Assembly (NCBI GenBank): GCA_937973945.1 | Contig: CALJIY010000078.1 | Coordinates: forward strand, 1-40,324 | Origin: an uncultured Saprospiraceae bacterium | GTDB lineage: Bacteria; Bacteroidota; Bacteroidia; Chitinophagales; Saprospiraceae | Length of the DNA stretch: 40,324 nucleotides | Direction: 5' to 3' | In this document: piece by piece, positions 1,726 to 17,919 of the stretch | How the letters are laid out: each line of letters opens with the position of its first letter | How positions within the stretch are numbered: position 1 is the first letter of the stretch | Translations under genes and position numbers: made by a program | Notes under the pieces: model-generated | What the model saw: the letters and a program-made list of their open reading frames with translations, nothing else | Told to the model about the DNA's origin: nothing | Databases searched by the model: none

Positions 1726-1972
1726 GATTTTGAACTTTTCTTAAAGTACCCTTTTTTCAGGGAAGCCTTACAAACCAACAGACTATTCTCTGCTAGTGAT
1801 TAATATAATTAACTGCAATTTACAGATTTAAGATTGCTATTTGTTTTAAAGTGCTGTTAAAATGCTGATTGGAGACTAAATTTTAATTATCTCTTTGTTA
1901 AAAACATTTATCTTTCCTTTCGTTCGTTTTATTAGTAGAAGCAAATTACTAACATTCACCTATTTGAAATTT

Positions 1973-3484
1973 ATGCGAAGTTCTACTTTTTATTTAGCAT
2001 TTTTTAGTTTATTACTCTTTGGTTGTAGGGATATAGCGGATACAGAATTACCCGATTATGAGCCAGAGTTTGCGATTCCTATCATTGAGGATGCAATTGT
2101 TAGCATTCCTGCCATATGGCAAAGTAATGATCCCAATCAATCATTAGCTATCTCTCCCGATGGACAATTAGTCTTTAAATATGCCAGTCCTGAAACAACA
2201 ATCCAAGCTAAGGATTTGTTGGGCGGAACATTGGCTTTTTTGTTAAGAGCAACGGTTCCGATGAATGATGATAAAGTACCCTTATTGCCAGATGATTTAG
2301 GGGTCGAACTAAGTGTAGAAGAGGCAGTGTTAATAGGTGGTTTATTTAATTTGACTTATAATACTGATAACTTTTCTGGAGATAGTATAGATATTGTCTT
2401 TACAGTTCCTGAATTGACTAAGGATGGTATGCCTTTACAACTAATGACGAATAGTGCTCAAACGAATTTTATATCAGCGAGTATAGAAGGCTACATCGCA
2501 AGACCAACAAATAACCAATTGACGATAACTTATACAGCTACTAATAAATCGGGAGTTCCCCAAGAACTTTCTAATATCACGATGCTTTTTAGCCCTCAAA
2601 TACAGGTACTAAAAGGATTTTTGGGTAGACAACAAATCATCATTCCTACAGATATTATTCCTATAGATTTGTTTGATGACCGATTTTTAAATGGTACCAT
2701 TCAATTTGCGGAACCCAAAATATCTGCTCGTGCAGAAAATGCTTTTGGTGTACCTGTTCGTACCCAAATAGATATATTAAATGCTTTTAGACCAAATGGA
2801 GAAGCTGTTTTAATAGATGCTAGAGCTATTGATCAGCAAGACATTAATTATCCATCTGTTAGTAATATTGGAACTAGTGAAGTGACGGAACTATATTTAG
2901 ATCATACGAATTCTAATTTGCCAGTAGTGTTTAATGAAGAAGTTACAGCAGTTGAGTATGGCCTAACAGCAGTCATTAATGCGGATAATGACTCAACTAT
3001 TACTAGCTTTTTAACAGATACGAGTTTCTTTAAAATACAAGTATTTGTAGAAGTACCAGTAATTGGCAGTGTTAAAAATTTTAGTTCAGAAGGAACTTAT
3101 GAAGTCTCTTTAGCAGAGGAGTTCGATGATATTGAAGCTATTAAAAAAGCAGAAATGAAATTAATTATTGAAAACGGTATTCCGTTAGAAGCCAAGGTTC
3201 AAGTACTATTTTTAGATAAAAATGGAGGCGTGCTTGATTCTTTGTTTCAAGAGCAACGAACTATTGTTGATGGTGCGCCTATAGATACAAGAGGATTCAC
3301 AACGGGCATACAAGAGACTATTAATTTTATTCCTATTACTGCTCAACAAATGGCTGCTATTCAGCAGACAGAGGCGATCCAAGTAAAGGCCTTGTTTAAT
3401 ACTTCTGGCTCTTTAAAAGAACCTGTGCATATATTGGATACGCAGGAATTGCGGGTACGTATGGGGATGCGGTTTAGTTTATAA
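1973..3484 (+). CDS. Lipoprotein, surface/envelope protein of unknown function
   Basis: The ORF opens at 1895, but MRSSTFYLAFFSLLLFGC (lipobox) starts at 1973; about 500-residue beta-rich sequence. Confidence 0.8.
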   Translation: MRSSTFYLAFFSLLLFGCRDIADTELPDYEPEFAIPIIEDAIVSIPAIWQSNDPNQSLAISPDGQLVFKYASPETTIQAKDLLGGTLAFLLRATVPMNDDKVPLLPDDLGVELSVEEAVLIGGLFNLTYNTDNFSGDSIDIVFTVPELTKDGMPLQLMTNSAQTNFISASIEGYIARPTNNQLTITYTATNKSGVPQELSNITMLFSPQIQVLKGFLGRQQIIIPTDIIPIDLFDDRFLNGTIQFAEPKISARAENAFGVPVRTQIDILNAFRPNGEAVLIDARAIDQQDINYPSVSNIGTSEVTELYLDHTNSNLPVVFNEEVTAVEYGLTAVINADNDSTITSFLTDTSFFKIQVFVEVPVIGSVKNFSSEGTYEVSLAEEFDDIEAIKKAEMKLIIENGIPLEAKVQVLFLDKNGGVLDSLFQEQRTIVDGAPIDTRGFTTGIQETINFIPITAQQMAAIQQTEAIQVKALFNTSGSLKEPVHILDTQELRVRMGMRFSL

Positions 3485-3659: not shown

Positions 3660-6518
3660 TTAATCCACAACGATCATTTTATTAGTCGTGCTACCTGCTG
3701 CTGTTTTTATATGATAATATAGAACACCAGAACCAGCTATATCAGATCGATTAATTTGAATTTCATTATATCCTTTTGGATAATCATTTTGCAAGCTATA
3801 TACTTGCCTTCCTGTCAAATCTGTTACTTCTAATTCAACAAATCCTGTTACAGGCACGTCAAATCCAATTGTTGTCCATTCAGAGAATGGATTTGGTTGG
3901 TTTTGTTTAACCTGTAACGTCGGATTTGTTATGAATTGAAATTCTATCCCCATCGCCTCCAGTTGCTCATTATAAGCTTCTGATGGTGTTGGATTGGATT
4001 GAATACTCAAAACATTGCTCAATCGAGCATTCTGTCTCGCAGTGAATGTAAGTTCAAAAGATAAGTCTTTAACTTGGAAGTACTGCAGGCCGTGATATGA
4101 AGCAGTGAGCGTTCCATTGTTTATTAGCCCTACATTCTGTTCAGCTAGCTGCTGCGAATTGACTCGAATAAACTCGAGTGTGGATTGAATATCTTTAAGT
4201 GTGAATTGGTAACCTGTTAGTTTTTCATCACCTATACCTTTGATTGGAATAGTGTAGGTTTCTCCAGCTACTAGATCCATGTCCGCTATTTCTAAGGAGA
4301 TAGTTTCTCTGCTTCTAGATGTACCTTGATTACTAGTTATGGCTGCAGAACGATCTGCTGATTGATTGATGTCTCCTACTTTAATAGCGACAAAATCTTG
4401 GCTGTCATCTTGAGATAAATATACAACAGCTGATTCAGGAAAATCATCAGCGAAAGGATTATTTGGATTTGGGAAAGTATAATTCGCATCTACAAATCTC
4501 CAAGGAGTATTATTTGGAAAGGTATCTTCTATTCCTAAAATTACTTTTCTAATCGCTACTATATCTGCTGTTGTGACGGCGCCAGAGTTATTAACATCCG
4601 CAGCAATATACTTGTATGGAGAATCAAAGGGCTCTAATCCAACAATCTGCTTTAATATAAGGATCATATCTAAGGTAGATACACCATTTTGATAGCTATC
4701 CTCTTTTGAGACCGTCATGGTAATTTCTTCGCAAGTTGGTACACCTGCTAGAGAAAAAGCACCATCTATGATCTCACTCATTATTGGTTCGTTGCTAGCT
4801 GTCGATAAAGTAACGGAAACCCCATCTACTCTTTGGTTAGAGGTCGTTAATACATCTCCCCATAAATCAGCATCTTTTCCATAATAGCCACATATTTCTT
4901 GATGTGCTGTTGCTTCAAACACATTATCTTGCATTAGGTTGATGTTCGTATTTCGCATAATGATTTCGGAGAACTTAGTTGTCTTAATCATTTCCTTTTC
5001 TTCCGCTGATAAATCGTTATCATTTTCGTAATAAAAACGATCGCCATCTCTTAGTGCTTGAAATTGACGTTGCAAGATAGTATTAACAGTTTCACCAAAC
5101 AAAGAATTCTCCATGTGGCCTTCAGCTAGCATGCCTACCCAAGGATCGATATCATTAATATCGTACATTTCTTCTAGAGCAGCTACGACCTCAATATCAT
5201 TTACTATTTGAAAAAAATCAGTATAACGACTAAGACCAAATGCATCTCGAACCGTATTTAAATCTGGTAAGCCTCTTTCCCTACCTCTATTAATATTGAT
5301 GGCTGCTAAATCAAGCCCACCAGCCCCGGGAGGACCAAACAGGAAGTTTCTAACGTCATCTACTATTTTTGCATCCATATTTTGTTGAACCTGAATAGCC
5401 ATTCCTTTAAGAAAAGGACCGATTCCTTCTTGTGCAACAATTGCTGGGTTGAAAAATGCTTGTCGCAATTGTAATGGACCTCCTGGATGCGGAGTTCCAT
5501 CCGTATCTACCATATTTATTTTGCCGCTCAATAGCGTATGTCCCATTCTAAAAGCAGCAGCAGAAAAAACATTGAATATAGTTGGATTCATAGTAGCTTT
5601 ATAGCCACTATAAGGAGGGATTGCTACACCCATTGATGGGAGCCACTCTTCGTAAGTGATAGACTGGAGGAAACCTCCAACAATTTTTCTAGCATGCTGA
5701 TATAGCTGTTCATCAGACCAATCTGGATGTTGGATCGCTAGATCATCACAAACTCTATTATGTTCTAAGTGAAATATCGTATGAAAAGAAGTTAGCAAGG
5801 CATTTTCATTTGCTCTCACATCTCCTGCCACAAATAAACGCTGGGCAATACCCACACCATCTTCCATATGTGGCGCATCAATATCTACCGCATCTTCAAA
5901 TTCCCCAGAAATTGTATTGTAAGGAAGTAGATTTCCTCTAGATACTTTTAACTTTCCTCCTTGCATGGTTCGCAACCAATTAGCCCGAAAAGCATCTGAT
6001 CCGTAAACACAAGAACCATCAATCCAAGCAGTGATTTCATTCATATGTTCTCTTGGATTACCTAAGTTTGTTCCAGTGCCTTCCATTACTTTATTTCTAT
6101 TCATTGGAATAACGGTATTAGGAAAAGCGCCTCCAGGATTAAAATGAGGATCTGGAAAGTCTACAGAAATCATTGCTGGTTCATCATTATTCTCAGATAG
6201 CGTGATGTCGTGATCTAACAGTTGACCAAAGACCCAAGTAAAGTCGCTTAAATTTAGCCGATCATTAATTAGTAAAGAATCTTGAGAGAACAGCGTATTA
6301 CTAATTTTTCTTGGATTCAACCTATTCGCTCCAGCAGGAGTGGAAATGTTATCTCCATAGTCTGCTGGCGCTATTCTTCGGAGTTGGGTATGCGTTGCCC
6401 CCCATTCAGGATTTAACAAGTTGTTATTTGAACCATCATAGGTTCTAATTTCGGATTGAGCGATTAAGCTGATCCCCAATAATATCATCCCTAGAACTAA
6501 AGTAAATTTCTTTTCCAT
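3660..6518 (-). CDS. Secreted animal-type haem peroxidase with dockerin-like and cohesin-like modules and a T9SS C-terminal sorting domain
   Basis: Peroxidase motifs FGQLLDHD, IDGSCVYGSD, AFRMGHTLL and INRGRERGLP; AADVNNSGAVTTADIVAIRKVILG (dockerin-like); cohesin-like VAGETYTIPIKGIG...YQFTL; C-terminal QPNPFSEWTTIGFDVP...GVLYYHIKTAAGSTTNKMIVVD. Start placed at MEKKFTLVL (6518). Confidence 0.9.
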   Translation of the reverse strand: MEKKFTLVLGMILLGISLIAQSEIRTYDGSNNNLLNPEWGATHTQLRRIAPADYGDNISTPAGANRLNPRKISNTLFSQDSLLINDRLNLSDFTWVFGQLLDHDITLSENNDEPAMISVDFPDPHFNPGGAFPNTVIPMNRNKVMEGTGTNLGNPREHMNEITAWIDGSCVYGSDAFRANWLRTMQGGKLKVSRGNLLPYNTISGEFEDAVDIDAPHMEDGVGIAQRLFVAGDVRANENALLTSFHTIFHLEHNRVCDDLAIQHPDWSDEQLYQHARKIVGGFLQSITYEEWLPSMGVAIPPYSGYKATMNPTIFNVFSAAAFRMGHTLLSGKINMVDTDGTPHPGGPLQLRQAFFNPAIVAQEGIGPFLKGMAIQVQQNMDAKIVDDVRNFLFGPPGAGGLDLAAININRGRERGLPDLNTVRDAFGLSRYTDFFQIVNDIEVVAALEEMYDINDIDPWVGMLAEGHMENSLFGETVNTILQRQFQALRDGDRFYYENDNDLSAEEKEMIKTTKFSEIIMRNTNINLMQDNVFEATAHQEICGYYGKDADLWGDVLTTSNQRVDGVSVTLSTASNEPIMSEIIDGAFSLAGVPTCEEITMTVSKEDSYQNGVSTLDMILILKQIVGLEPFDSPYKYIAADVNNSGAVTTADIVAIRKVILGIEDTFPNNTPWRFVDANYTFPNPNNPFADDFPESAVVYLSQDDSQDFVAIKVGDINQSADRSAAITSNQGTSRSRETISLEIADMDLVAGETYTIPIKGIGDEKLTGYQFTLKDIQSTLEFIRVNSQQLAEQNVGLINNGTLTASYHGLQYFQVKDLSFELTFTARQNARLSNVLSIQSNPTPSEAYNEQLEAMGIEFQFITNPTLQVKQNQPNPFSEWTTIGFDVPVTGFVELEVTDLTGRQVYSLQNDYPKGYNEIQINRSDIAGSGVLYYHIKTAAGSTTNKMIVVD

Positions 6519-6652
6519 TATCGCGTTAATGTGCACTTCGTTAGACTTAAAGTAATTTTTATCAGTTTGTTTGAAAAATAAAAGAGAAGTAGACCATATT
6601 GAGGTCTCTTCTTAAGTGTTTTCAGACAAAAGACTTCTTTACAAAAGCTATA

Positions 6653-7156: not shown

Positions 7157-8563
7157 TTATTCTTTTTCTTCCTCTTTATCTTCTTCTTTTTTAGTGTTTA
7201 TATCACTGCCATTTTTTAATTTTCTTGAAATAGCAGAATATGGACCTACTACAATCTCTTCTCCGTCGCTCACACCTGAAAGTACCTCAATATAGGTGTC
7301 ATCTTGTAAGCCTGTTTTGACAGGGACCATTTTTACAGTATCTGCGGTTGAATCTGTTACAAAAATGACTTCTAAATTGGTATCGTCTTCCTTATTTTTT
7401 CCCTTTTCTTTTGCCTCGGGATCTTCCCGAACTGTTACGGCTTGTATCGGAACACTTAAAACATCTGTTGCTTCATTGGTAAAAATTTCTACAGAAGCAG
7501 ACATCCCTGGTCGTAATGGAAATCTATTACTATTAGAGGATAATTCAGCGTAGGAATCTAAGTCGATCAATATCTTCACGACGAAGTTAGTGACTTGATC
7601 AGAATTTAAGGAGGTTCCTGCAGAAGTGGCAGAATTAGCAATTTCTGTGACTTTCCCTTTAAATTTTCTATCAATGTATGCATCCACTTCCACTTCTACA
7701 ATATCTCCTAGTTGAACTCTGGGAATGTCATTTTCACTTACATCCACTTGTACCTCCATCGCATTCATATTGGCTACACGCATCATTTCTGTACCTGCCA
7801 TCATACCGGCACCGACCACGCGTTCTCCTTTTTCCACATTTAGCATAGATACTACGCCAGTCATTGGACTGAATACGGAAGTCCTTTTAAGATTTGTTTT
7901 TAGTTCTTTTAAGCTTGCTTCACTACTCTTAACCGTAAATTCTGCTGCTTTTTCAGATTGTTCTGCCGCTTTTAAATTGGCTTTGGCAGATTCTAAACTA
8001 GCATCGGCAGATTTTAAATTGGCTTCTAAATTTTGAAGATTAGAAAGAGATTGATCAAATTCTGCATCAGAGATAATCCCTTCTTTATGCATATTCTCAT
8101 TTCGCTGATGAATAGCGCGAGCATTTTGTAATTGAGCAGCTATTTGTTCTTTTTGAGCTTGAGATTGGGCTAACATCGCTTTATTTCTTTCTATATCAGC
8201 CGAAGCCCTAGCTACTTGCGCCTTGGAGTTATTGACACTTGCTGCTTGTCGTTCTACCTGTGAAAGAATCGCATCTGGATCAATTTTGGCTAATAGTTGG
8301 CCTACTTTTACGGAATCACCTTCTTCGATATAAATATCTATAATTTCTCCAGATACATCAGGACTGATATTCACTTCTGTTTCTGGAAAAACTTTTCCAC
8401 TTGCAGCGACGGTCTCTTTGATTGTTCTCTTTTTGACGGTGTCTACTTCTACCTTTTCGCCTTTAGGCTTTTGTTTACTTTTCCAAACAGCACCAATCAC
8501 TAATAAGGCTATTAATCCGATTAAAATATAAATTAATTTATTACTCTTTTTTTTCTTTGCCAT
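7157..8563 (-). CDS. MacA/HlyD-type efflux periplasmic adaptor subunit
   Basis: N-terminal TM; barrel-sandwich motif VFPETEVNISPDVSGEIIDIYIEEGDSVKVGQLLAKID; long coiled coil; C-terminal VKTGLQDDTYIEVLSGVSDGEEIVVGP. Confidence 0.92.
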   Translation of the reverse strand: MAKKKKSNKLIYILIGLIALLVIGAVWKSKQKPKGEKVEVDTVKKRTIKETVAASGKVFPETEVNISPDVSGEIIDIYIEEGDSVKVGQLLAKIDPDAILSQVERQAASVNNSKAQVARASADIERNKAMLAQSQAQKEQIAAQLQNARAIHQRNENMHKEGIISDAEFDQSLSNLQNLEANLKSADASLESAKANLKAAEQSEKAAEFTVKSSEASLKELKTNLKRTSVFSPMTGVVSMLNVEKGERVVGAGMMAGTEMMRVANMNAMEVQVDVSENDIPRVQLGDIVEVEVDAYIDRKFKGKVTEIANSATSAGTSLNSDQVTNFVVKILIDLDSYAELSSNSNRFPLRPGMSASVEIFTNEATDVLSVPIQAVTVREDPEAKEKGKNKEDDTNLEVIFVTDSTADTVKMVPVKTGLQDDTYIEVLSGVSDGEEIVVGPYSAISRKLKNGSDINTKKEEDKEEEKE

Positions 8564-8646
8564 ACTTGTTTTAAACTTGATTCTTTATTTTTTTGCTAAA
8601 CCATAGATTCTAGATCAATCCAATTGTCTATTAGGGGTGGAATAAA

Positions 8647-8726
8647 GATATATTTCGTTTGAAAAATAACGAGATTCCGTCTATTTTTAAATGGAATATG
8701 TCTCTACTCTCTGTTCTATTCTATAC
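8647..8726. repeat. GA/CT-rich inverted-repeat element, degenerate third copy
   Basis: Inner stem AGATATATTTCGTTTGAAAAATA/TATTTTTAAATGGAATATGTCT followed by TCTCTACTCTCTGTTCTATTCTATAC, as in 22131-22249. Confidence 0.5.
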
Positions 8727-10041
8727 TCAAATCTTTACCAAGATAAAAGTCAATTATCTTTAGTCGAAATACATAATCGTATTTTGATTGAATTACATTT
8801 AGTTCTGCGGCATCTAGGTTACCTTTTGAATTGGTGAATTCTAAAGTATTGATAGCTCCTAACTCATACATTTTTTGCGCATTATTATAAGAAGCTTTAG
8901 CAGCGTCCAAAGCTGTTTGATTAGCGGCTAATTGTGATTTAGCGGCTCTTGCACTAGCAATGGCATTTTGGATATCTGCTTTTAGTGCTTGTTTCGCTTG
9001 CTTGTTTTGAACTTCTGCATTGATTACGCCTAATCTAGCTCTTTCCACAGCTAATTTAGTTCTATTCCTATTATAAATGGGAATAGATAGTTGAGCACCA
9101 AGTGTTTGCCCTAAGTTATTATCTAATTGAGTAAAATATTTAGGATTTTGAAAGTTAGGGATGTTTGCATAATTCGAATTAATTTGAGCAAAGAGATCAA
9201 TCTGAGGTAAACCTAATGATTCAGCGATAGGAATATCTAATTGAGCACTTTCCATTCTTAATTCACTCGCTTTAATAGATGGCTGTGCATCTAATGCCTG
9301 CACGTAAATTTCTTCTAAGGAAAGAATTTCTTCTGCACTAGGAATAACATCTGTTGGGACCTCCACCCTAATATCTTGAGCAGGGTCCAACTCTAATAGA
9401 TTTTTTAAATTAACCAAATTAATAGCTACGTTATTCTGAGCTGTAACTAAGTTTTGCTGATTTCTGGCTTGCTGTGCTAATATTTCTAAGCGCTCATTTT
9501 TTGGCAATACGCCGGCATTAATACGCTTGTCTGTTTGCGCTAATTGCGTATCTGTTAGTTTTAGTTGATTTTGAGCAATAGCCACTTGTTCTTGAGCTAA
9601 TAATACGTTCAAATAAACAGAAGATATTTGTAAAGCGATATCATTTTGCATCGTCTGTGCCTCTGCTTTTGCGGCTTCTATTTCAAGACTACTTTTTTCA
9701 ATAGAATTTTTGATTCGACCGCCACTATATACATTCATGCCTGATGATATAGATACTTGACTATTTCCAATTCGTTGATTTCTAAAATCGTTTGTGGTAG
9801 GATCAATCGTTCTTCCAAAATTAAAACCACCATTGATATTGGCATTTAAATTAGGATAGCGCGCAAATTTATCTTCTTTATTATTTATGACTGCTTGTTG
9901 AATGGCAATTTCAGATTGACGAAGATTTAAGTTGTTCTTTTGAGCATGTTCTATGCACTTTTGCAGAGACCAGACTTCTTGTGCTTGTACATTATAACAA
10001 ATTATACAGAGTAATGTTAGTAAAAAGGTATTTCGTATCAT
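8716..10041 (-). CDS. TolC-family outer membrane efflux protein
   Basis: Start at MIRNTFLLTLLCIICYNVQAQ (10041); WSLQKCIEHAQKNNLNLRQSEIAIQQ and repeated TolC helical hairpins. Confidence 0.92.
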   Translation of the reverse strand: MIRNTFLLTLLCIICYNVQAQEVWSLQKCIEHAQKNNLNLRQSEIAIQQAVINNKEDKFARYPNLNANINGGFNFGRTIDPTTNDFRNQRIGNSQVSISSGMNVYSGGRIKNSIEKSSLEIEAAKAEAQTMQNDIALQISSVYLNVLLAQEQVAIAQNQLKLTDTQLAQTDKRINAGVLPKNERLEILAQQARNQQNLVTAQNNVAINLVNLKNLLELDPAQDIRVEVPTDVIPSAEEILSLEEIYVQALDAQPSIKASELRMESAQLDIPIAESLGLPQIDLFAQINSNYANIPNFQNPKYFTQLDNNLGQTLGAQLSIPIYNRNRTKLAVERARLGVINAEVQNKQAKQALKADIQNAIASARAAKSQLAANQTALDAAKASYNNAQKMYELGAINTLEFTNSKGNLDAAELNVIQSKYDYVFRLKIIDFYLGKDLSIE

Positions 10042-10246
10042 TTTGTATCTTTTCGGATGATTTACTATTAGTTTTCTGAATTGCTTTTTGGCGTATAACA
10101 GATTTCCTACAATAATAACAAGTCCTACGAATAACAAAGTCATTATTTATATTAAAGGTCCAGAATTATGGATTAAAGGTAAGTAAAATGCGATTATTGG
10201 CAGAATTTCTTATAAATATTAAAGAAATGGGAAGGCGGTTTAATAC

Positions 10247-10312
10247 TAGTTTAGACCTCTGATTGGGGTAGGGAAACATAATAAAGACTGCTCGGACCAG
10301 AGGTCTAAGCTA
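10247..10312. repeat. REP-like inverted repeat
   Basis: TAGTTTAGACCTCTG...CAGAGGTCTAAGCTA (11 bp perfect; 15 bp with one G-T pair). Confidence 0.65.
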
Positions 10313-10325
10313 CGGATATGACGAT

Positions 10326-10931
10326 TTACTTCAATGCTTTAATTTTTTCAAAAAGCACATCTTCATCTCCTGTACGGTATTTTCGTTTGTGATACACTAT
10401 ATTACCTTCGGCATCATACAAAAATACTTGTGGTAAACCATTTAGGTTACCCGGCATAACTCTAGAAAAGCCTTTGTTGGTATCATGATATGCTTCAAAA
10501 GGCCATTGACTTTCAGACACCCTTTTAGTGAAATTAGCGTAATTCTTTTGGAAATCCGTAGACACCGCATAGAAATTGAAATCTTCCTCTGCTATCCATT
10601 TTGGGTACTTTTCTTTTAATGCTTTGAGCTCTAGCCCACAGGGATAGCAGGTTGTTAACCAAAATAAGATAACAGTCGGTTTTCCATTTTTTTTGAAGGT
10701 GGAGGAGGAGTTTAAGGCAGTACCCTCTACATTAGTTAAATCCACATTATATGGATAATCTGTAGCAATAGGTAGTCCTTCTGTGGGTATAGTGCCTTTG
10801 TAATGAGCAGGAACTTTAAATGTAGGAACAGTAGCTGTAGCTACCTTTTCGACAGGAGGTGCTGTTACTTGTTGAGATTGGCAAGCAACGAATGAAAGTA
10901 ATATAAAGGGAAGGAAGAATAGTTTTTTCAC
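10326..10931 (-). CDS. TlpA-like thioredoxin-fold lipoprotein
   Basis: GTG start at 10931 gives VKKLFFLPFILLSFVACQSQ (lipobox); redox motif LTTCYPCGLELKAL. Confidence 0.85.
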   Translation of the reverse strand: MKKLFFLPFILLSFVACQSQQVTAPPVEKVATATVPTFKVPAHYKGTIPTEGLPIATDYPYNVDLTNVEGTALNSSSTFKKNGKPTVILFWLTTCYPCGLELKALKEKYPKWIAEEDFNFYAVSTDFQKNYANFTKRVSESQWPFEAYHDTNKGFSRVMPGNLNGLPQVFLYDAEGNIVYHKRKYRTGDEDVLFEKIKALK

Positions 10932-11011
10932 AAGTCTATATTTTTGTGTGTCCACATATGTGACTGATACAATCAAAAATACATCAAATAGAATGCCTTG
11001 GCAAGTTAAAT

Positions 11012-17007: not shown

Positions 17008-17919
17008 TTGAAATCAAAGATAGTCATAGGTACCAGAGGTAGTAAGCTAGCATTGTGGCAAGCAAACTTCACCAAAGATCAATTAGAAAAACTAGGTCTA
17101 ACAGTGGAGTTAAAAATTATTAAAACCAAAGGAGATAAAATCCAGCATTTGAGTTTTGATAAAATAGAAGGGAAAGGATTCTTTACAAAGGAATTGGAAG
17201 ATGCTTTATTAAGTGGACAAGTAGATATGGCGGTTCACTCTATGAAGGACTTACCAACGACTTCGCCTGAAGGACTGGTGATTGCGGGGGTATCTTATAG
17301 AGCTAATCCTGCGGATTGGTTAATTATTAGAAAAGGACAGGAAGATACTTCTAAAATATATCAATTAAAAGAAGGGGCAATTGTAGGTACTTCTTCTGCG
17401 CGCCGCAAAGCGCAATTATTAAACATCCGAGCAGATGTTCAAGTAAAAGATATTAGAGGGAATGTGCCTACTCGTTTGAATAAATTAGCAGCAGGTGATT
17501 TTGATGCCATTCTTTTGGCAGCCGCAGGTATGGAGCGATTGGAAATGGATTTGACGCCTTTTATCGTTATTCCGCTTAATCCAAAAGAATTTGTTCCTGC
17601 CCCTGCACAAGGTGTTTTGGCTTTTCAGACTTGTGCTGCGGATAAAGAAACCCGTCGGATTATTCAACAATTACATCATAAAGAGGTGGCTGCTAGAACG
17701 AATATAGAACGAAAGGTGTTGCAATTTTTTCAAGGAGGGTGCCAGATGCCACTAGGTGTTTATTGCGAGCAAGATGCTGCGGGTAATTATCATGTATGGG
17801 CAGCTAAGGCGGAGGCTTGGGACGGAGAGATAAAACGAATTCGATATTCTGCTAGTACGAATTATTTATTAGCGGAAGAGATTGTAAAGCAGTTAAAAGA
17901 AGAGATCTTATTGAAATAG
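17008..17919 (+). CDS. hemC: Hydroxymethylbilane synthase (porphobilinogen deaminase)
   Basis: TTG start; IGTRGSKLALWQA, MAVHSMKDLPT, IVGTSSARRKAQLL, RGNVPTRLNKL, FFQGGCQMPLG. Confidence 0.97.
   Translation: MKSKIVIGTRGSKLALWQANFTKDQLEKLGLTVELKIIKTKGDKIQHLSFDKIEGKGFFTKELEDALLSGQVDMAVHSMKDLPTTSPEGLVIAGVSYRANPADWLIIRKGQEDTSKIYQLKEGAIVGTSSARRKAQLLNIRADVQVKDIRGNVPTRLNKLAAGDFDAILLAAAGMERLEMDLTPFIVIPLNPKEFVPAPAQGVLAFQTCAADKETRRIIQQLHHKEVAARTNIERKVLQFFQGGCQMPLGVYCEQDAAGNYHVWAAKAEAWDGEIKRIRYSASTNYLLAEEIVKQLKEEILLK

Follow-up and report, generated by a model that had tools for sequence, protein, structure and literature searches.

Members of the peroxidase-cyclooxygenase superfamily are recognised by a distal Gln and His, a catalytic Arg-x-x-Glu, and a proximal His that is hydrogen-bonded to an Asn (PMC4420034, PMC11776367). 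Among the bacterial representatives, CyanoPOX from Cyanobacterium sp. TDX16 has been characterised as an active peroxidase whose best substrate is iodide (PMC11776367), and fusions of a peroxidase with a dockerin have already been named peroxidockerins, Family 6 of the superfamily (PMC4420034). Here, we analysed a window of 40,324 nucleotides from an uncultured Saprospiraceae bacterium (contig CALJIY010000078.1, assembly GCA_937973945.1), which encodes an animal-type haem peroxidase with a long modular tail. Our literature search retrieved no named Saprospiraceae dockerin-cohesin tail and no animal-type peroxidase exported by the type IX secretion system (T9SS), which is not proof that none exists.

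The solved structure closest to the catalytic half is CyanoPOX (PDB 8s6c, Table 1); Dictyostelium peroxinectin A and lactoperoxidase (LPO) come next. The likeness to CyanoPOX (PMC11776367) spans the domain over residues 30-541 and includes the distal and proximal residues, the Ca site and the ester acids, whereas CyanoPOX differs in carrying RGRDHG and Asp84 and in ending with a short PEP-CTERM tail where the window protein has a T9SS tail. Peroxinectin A (6erc) and lactoperoxidase/myeloperoxidase share the fold and the haem-pocket residues (278 and ~220 bits) but are eukaryotic, less similar and without a dockerin/cohesin/T9SS tail. Like the peroxidockerins (PMC4420034), the window protein joins a bacterial peroxidase domain to a dockerin-type module; it is likened to them by domain content, the dockerin being supported by homologues and its single-sequence match falling below the Pfam cut-off. 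Unlike them, it adds a cohesin-like domain and a T9SS sorting domain, and this addition is common on secreted proteins of Saprospiraceae. The gene is largely ordinary because it combines an intact known enzyme with a stock Saprospiraceae C-terminal cassette. We read its product as a stand-alone, T9SS-exported LPO-type peroxidase carried on a generic stalk (probability roughly 0.8), with the activity, substrate, surface anchoring and role predicted from the sequence.

Gene model and domain architecture

The open reading frame lies on the minus strand (3660-6536) and encodes 958 amino acids if read from a GTG, while an ATG at 6518 yields a product of 952 amino acids (3660-6518). The ATG is the likely start because the N-termini of relatives and the signal peptide agree with it; the product then begins with MEKKFTLVLGMILLGISLIAQ, as the relatives do, and ends at the coordinate (6518) already chosen in the preliminary description. 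At the N-terminus, a signal peptide is followed by a PF03098 haem peroxidase and an Ig-like domain; the rest of the chain consists of a dockerin-like repeat, then a cohesin-like sandwich, and lastly the T9SS type A sorting domain (Table 1). The preliminary description had proposed a peroxidase fused to dockerin-like, cohesin-like and T9SS C-terminal modules, and the domain and profile matches confirm this gene. The signal peptide was judged by eye; its predicted cleavage site, A/Q before Gln27, fits the Bacteroidetes Q-rule, by which a Gln is expected after the cleavage site (PMC5837995). An artefact of assembly does not explain the fusion, since a protein from a Saprospiraceae metagenome-assembled genome (L035) is 89% identical over the full length and ~30 full-length orthologues of 950-1024 amino acids were read from other genomes.

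Table 1. Features of the peroxidase gene, with positions in the window
Feature	Position	Strand	Evidence
Signal peptide (MEKKFTLVLGMILLGISLIA/Q)	6459..6518	-	Seen in sequence; N-terminus shared with L035 and L076
Animal-type haem peroxidase PF03098, residues 31-540	4917..6446	-	E=2.4e-143; PDB 8s6c E=1.2e-132
Distal motif GQLLDHD: Gln105, Asp108 (haem ester), His109 (distal), Asp110 (Ca)	6207..6227	-	Q, D, H in 53/53
Calcium loop T169-x-W-x-D173-x-S175	6012..6032	-	Mapped from CyanoPOX T140/W142/D144/S146; D and S invariant
GDVRANE: catalytic Arg241 and second ester Glu244	5805..5825	-	Both in 53/53
RMGH: Arg330 (propionate) and proximal His333	5538..5549	-	Both invariant in 53 sequences
NINRGRERG: proximal Asn414, propionate Arg417, D to E and H to R variant of RGRDHG	5271..5297	-	Asn, both Arg and Gly invariant
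Ig-like / CarboxypepD_reg-like domain, residues 549-611	4704..4892	-	PF13620 in homologous tails; NOMO2 beta-sandwich
Dockerin-like duplicated segment, residues 611-672	4521..4706	-	PF00404 sub-threshold; profile matches PDB dockerins
Conserved linker (FPNNTPWRFVDANYTF ... DFVAIKVGDIN)	4320..4520	-	Conserved across aligned tails
Cohesin-like domain, ~residues 740-868	3933..4319	-	Profile matches PDB cohesins 3l8q, 2y3n, 1tyj, 5g5d
T9SS type A C-terminal sorting domain, residues 881-956	3669..3896	-	TIGR04183 27.2 bits, cut-off 23

The tail and its modules

A profile built from 18 tails (that of the window protein and 17 others from the same genome) matched PDB dockerins (4dh2_B, 1e-4) and cohesins (3l8q, 2e-5; 2y3n, 1e-3), showed a weak match to T9SS C-terminal domains (8glk_D, 0.012), and aligned with the NOMO2 beta-sandwich over the Ig-like domain. 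On the window sequence alone, Dockerin_1 scored 18.8 bits against a cut-off of 22.9 and no Pfam match to cohesin was reported; several homologous tails exceed the Pfam cut-offs for both cohesin (PF00963) and dockerin. By this profile and by the Pfam matches of the homologues, the names dockerin-like and cohesin-like, first given from the sequence, are right. AlphaFold models of the tail and of the full protein, made with three alignment rows, had low confidence, with mean pLDDT values of 45 and 33. In the dockerin-like segment, the second loop is canonical (D647-x-N649-x-S651...D658), and the first is degenerate, being one residue short with weak ligand positions. Column counts showed that the second-loop pattern (D-x-N/D-x-S/N...D) and the hydrophobic helix pattern are conserved.

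The genome encodes ~20 near full-length copies of the tail (31-41% identity), mostly on adhesin-like repeat proteins (HYR, SprB, SdrD_B, DUF11, PKD) and also on a redoxin-like protein. PF00404 was matched 19 times in the genome, always within one of these tails and always upstream of a cohesin-like region in cis. Among 198 Bacteroidota genomes, the dockerin and cohesin part was detected in five Saprospiraceae (including the genome of the window), with at least 10 copies in each, and outside this family in partial form in one genome of another family. The combination of Ig, dockerin-like and cohesin-like modules is best read as a generic Saprospiraceae stalk placed on many cargos, not as a cellulosome-type address. 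Sequence similarity to the clostridial cellulosomal dockerins and cohesins (4dh2, 3l8q, 2y3n) is detectable in both modules. A cellulosomal system, however, is recognised by dockerins with two canonical Ca loops and by a multi-cohesin scaffoldin alongside cohesin-free dockerin enzymes, whereas here only the second loop is canonical, the two modules always share one chain (19/19 dockerins in cis), and the assembly (632 contigs, ~91% complete) yielded no scaffoldin-like chain, with at most two cohesin matches per chain. At this completeness, a scaffoldin may have been missed.

That dockerin and cohesin always occur in one chain, ~20 times in this genome and ahead of a T9SS signal, is the part that deserves attention. 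The tail might be a self-contained dockerin-cohesin pair, acting as an intrachain Ca-dependent latch that sets the shape of the stalk or protects the sorting signal, or as a head-to-tail linkage at the surface; we put this forward tentatively and consider it rather doubtful. If true, the dockerin-cohesin pair would have a use beyond cellulosomes, and its passengers would include an enzyme that produces oxidants.

The modules could instead dock in trans, such that the peroxidase would be one subunit of a Ca-dependent surface network made with other tail-bearing proteins or with small secreted proteins that have a single cohesin. Both modules are common to the ~20 tail proteins, and the conserved second Ca loop and helix pattern would suit such docking, as would the few dockerin-free cohesin-like proteins of the genome. 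We nevertheless judge it improbable, since each dockerin is already adjoined by a cohesin, the cohesin counts per chain leave no scaffoldin-like array, the first Ca loop is degenerate and the cohesin part is little conserved between species. Two of the dockerin-free proteins were read, C55 (L136:993-1874) and C73 (L137:1150-1887); each is a small secreted protein in which one cohesin-like domain but no dockerin was matched, one carries a sorting-like tail, and both are possible partners in trans. The preliminary description had suggested assembly with other surface proteins, which is unsupported as stated given a cassette of ~20 copies with its cohesin always in cis. The search for partners that it had called for did return these few proteins, but neither a scaffoldin nor a dockerin without a cohesin in cis. 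Pairing in cis or in trans would tell how Saprospiraceae build their surface, and dockerin and cohesin annotations of this kind should not be taken as cellulosomes.

The haem pocket and the RGRERG motif

The match to PF03098 (An_peroxidase) reaches 478.9 bits against a cut-off of 25 and covers positions 2-530 of the 530 in the profile, and the window protein is a full-length member of the peroxidase-cyclooxygenase superfamily. We mapped the haem-pocket residues from the CyanoPOX structure onto 53 sequences, including the window protein and three paralogues from its genome. The distal Gln and His, both ester acids, the catalytic Arg, the propionate Args, and the proximal His and Asn are invariant in 53/53. 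The distal Ca ligands are invariant or almost so, with the Asp of the distal motif (Asp110) kept in 50/53 sequences and replaced by Glu in 3/53. The window protein thus has the residues by which the superfamily is recognised, the proximal His-Asn hydrogen bond itself being predicted. One haem propionate contact of CyanoPOX, Asp84, is a Thr in the window protein and varies within the clade. The motifs quoted in the preliminary description (GQLLDHD, VYGSD, FRMGH and RGRERG) were all found as given, and its intact haem pocket was borne out by the residue mapping. The protein is an intact bacterial relative of lactoperoxidase that keeps every residue expected for activity, and we take it for an ordinary bacterial LPO-type peroxidase with activity and substrate predicted.

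In the numbering of CyanoPOX, the RGRDHG motif comes after the proximal Asn376 and includes the propionate Arg379; both of these and the second Arg are present in 53/53 sequences. The Asp and His positions are occupied by Glu in 50/53 and by Arg in 50/53, the Saprospiraceae clade having mostly Glu-Arg, and the Asp-His pair is kept by CyanoPOX and, among the four paralogues of the genome, by L003 and L004. Because Glu-Arg is near-universal in the Saprospiraceae clade and the Asn and Args are invariant, RGRERG reads as a conserved clade signature, not as a lesion of the window gene. The change noted earlier from RGRDHG to RGRERG is real, but is a clade-wide variant and no anomaly of this gene. 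The alteration at both Asp and His would fit a catalytically dead relative, in which haem use was lost through RGRERG and other changes and the domain became structural. This is very unlikely, as the distal Gln/His/Arg, the ester acids, the propionate Args, the distal Ca ligands and the proximal His/Asn are all kept, and the conservation of the variant itself in 50/53 sequences indicates selection, not decay. Three more An_peroxidase genes are present in the same genome (C266, C123 and C332, at L001, L003 and L004, respectively), with frames of 679, 733 and 903 amino acids, and two of them keep RGRDHG.

Export and proposed function

The sorting domain passes the type A model (Table 1) and falls slightly below the Pfam cut-off for Por_Secre_tail (24.4 against 27). 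The T9SS machinery of the genome was detected above cut-off for SprA (2382 bits), PorU (1275 bits) and PorV (480 bits), the genes whose absence the preliminary description had named as speaking against its proposal. Together with the type A sorting domain and a signal peptide ending in A/Q, they support the surface display suggested there, with anchoring predicted. Sec would carry the peroxidase over the inner membrane and the type IX system over the outer membrane, after which PorU would cleave the sorting domain, leaving the protein anchored or released. At the surface, it would oxidise small electron donors (iodide, another halide or pseudohalide, or phenols) with H2O2, the distal His/Arg and the proximal His-Asn acting as they do in CyanoPOX and LPO. 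The cell would most likely gain from the destruction of peroxide and from diffusible oxidants made close by. The reading of a T9SS-exported peroxidase on a generic stalk was set on computed domain content, residue conservation, T9SS genes, tail multiplicity and inheritance of the fusion. With at least four An_peroxidase genes in the genome, the role of the one in the window may overlap with those of the others.

Genomic neighbourhood

We treated the peroxidase gene as stand-alone because its neighbours, a TlpA-like thioredoxin, TolC and an HlyD-type adaptor encoded in a row (7157-10976, minus strand), adjoin the orthologue in only one congener. Least probable of the alternatives, and very unlikely, is a functional unit with these upstream genes, for instance for export or maturation. 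They are adjacent on the same strand and keep their order in that congener (L076), but of 20 loci examined, 19 (some on short contigs) do not have them beside the orthologue, a gap of 620 bases separates them from the peroxidase gene, and the T9SS signal offers another export route. No inner-membrane transporter gene lies between this row and the peroxidase. In 12 of 20 loci (L076-L095), a divergent gene without a family match is located 4-7 kb upstream of the orthologue; one example is L082:13164-16001, which has homologues in 11 other loci of this set. Neither these genes nor the row found in one congener provided a conserved neighbour as a functional lead. Also adjoining the peroxidase is an open reading frame of 529 amino acids without Pfam or NCBIfam match (1895-3484, plus strand). 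Further along the window is a gene for porphobilinogen deaminase, an enzyme of haem biosynthesis (17008-17919, plus strand), and the remaining genes are ordinary housekeeping or envelope genes.

Distribution and inheritance of the fusion

Relatives of the peroxidase were identified in 177 of 248 Saprospiraceae genomes in two forms, one long and bearing the full tail, the other of ~640 amino acids and lacking the dockerin-cohesin part. The long form is common to ~30 Saprospiraceae species and strongly clustered on the peroxidase tree, in which CyanoPOX served only as an outside row, with three changes between forms against 17 in shuffles; one short row (L052) seems to belong to the long group and to be truncated. 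Because of this clustering, we take the fusion to be old and inherited. Between the window protein and other species (L035 left aside), the catalytic part is 57-73% identical and the cohesin part 18-45%, showing that the tail changes more rapidly than the enzyme, which would be expected of a stalk. Other Saprospiraceae encode tandem An_peroxidase pairs as single open reading frames of ~1160-1450 amino acids, at G239:C378:10263-13373 (L113), G173:C326:1173-4277 (L114) and G101:C595:40965-44057 (L115). Both An_peroxidase domains of L113 and L115 contain RGRDRG.
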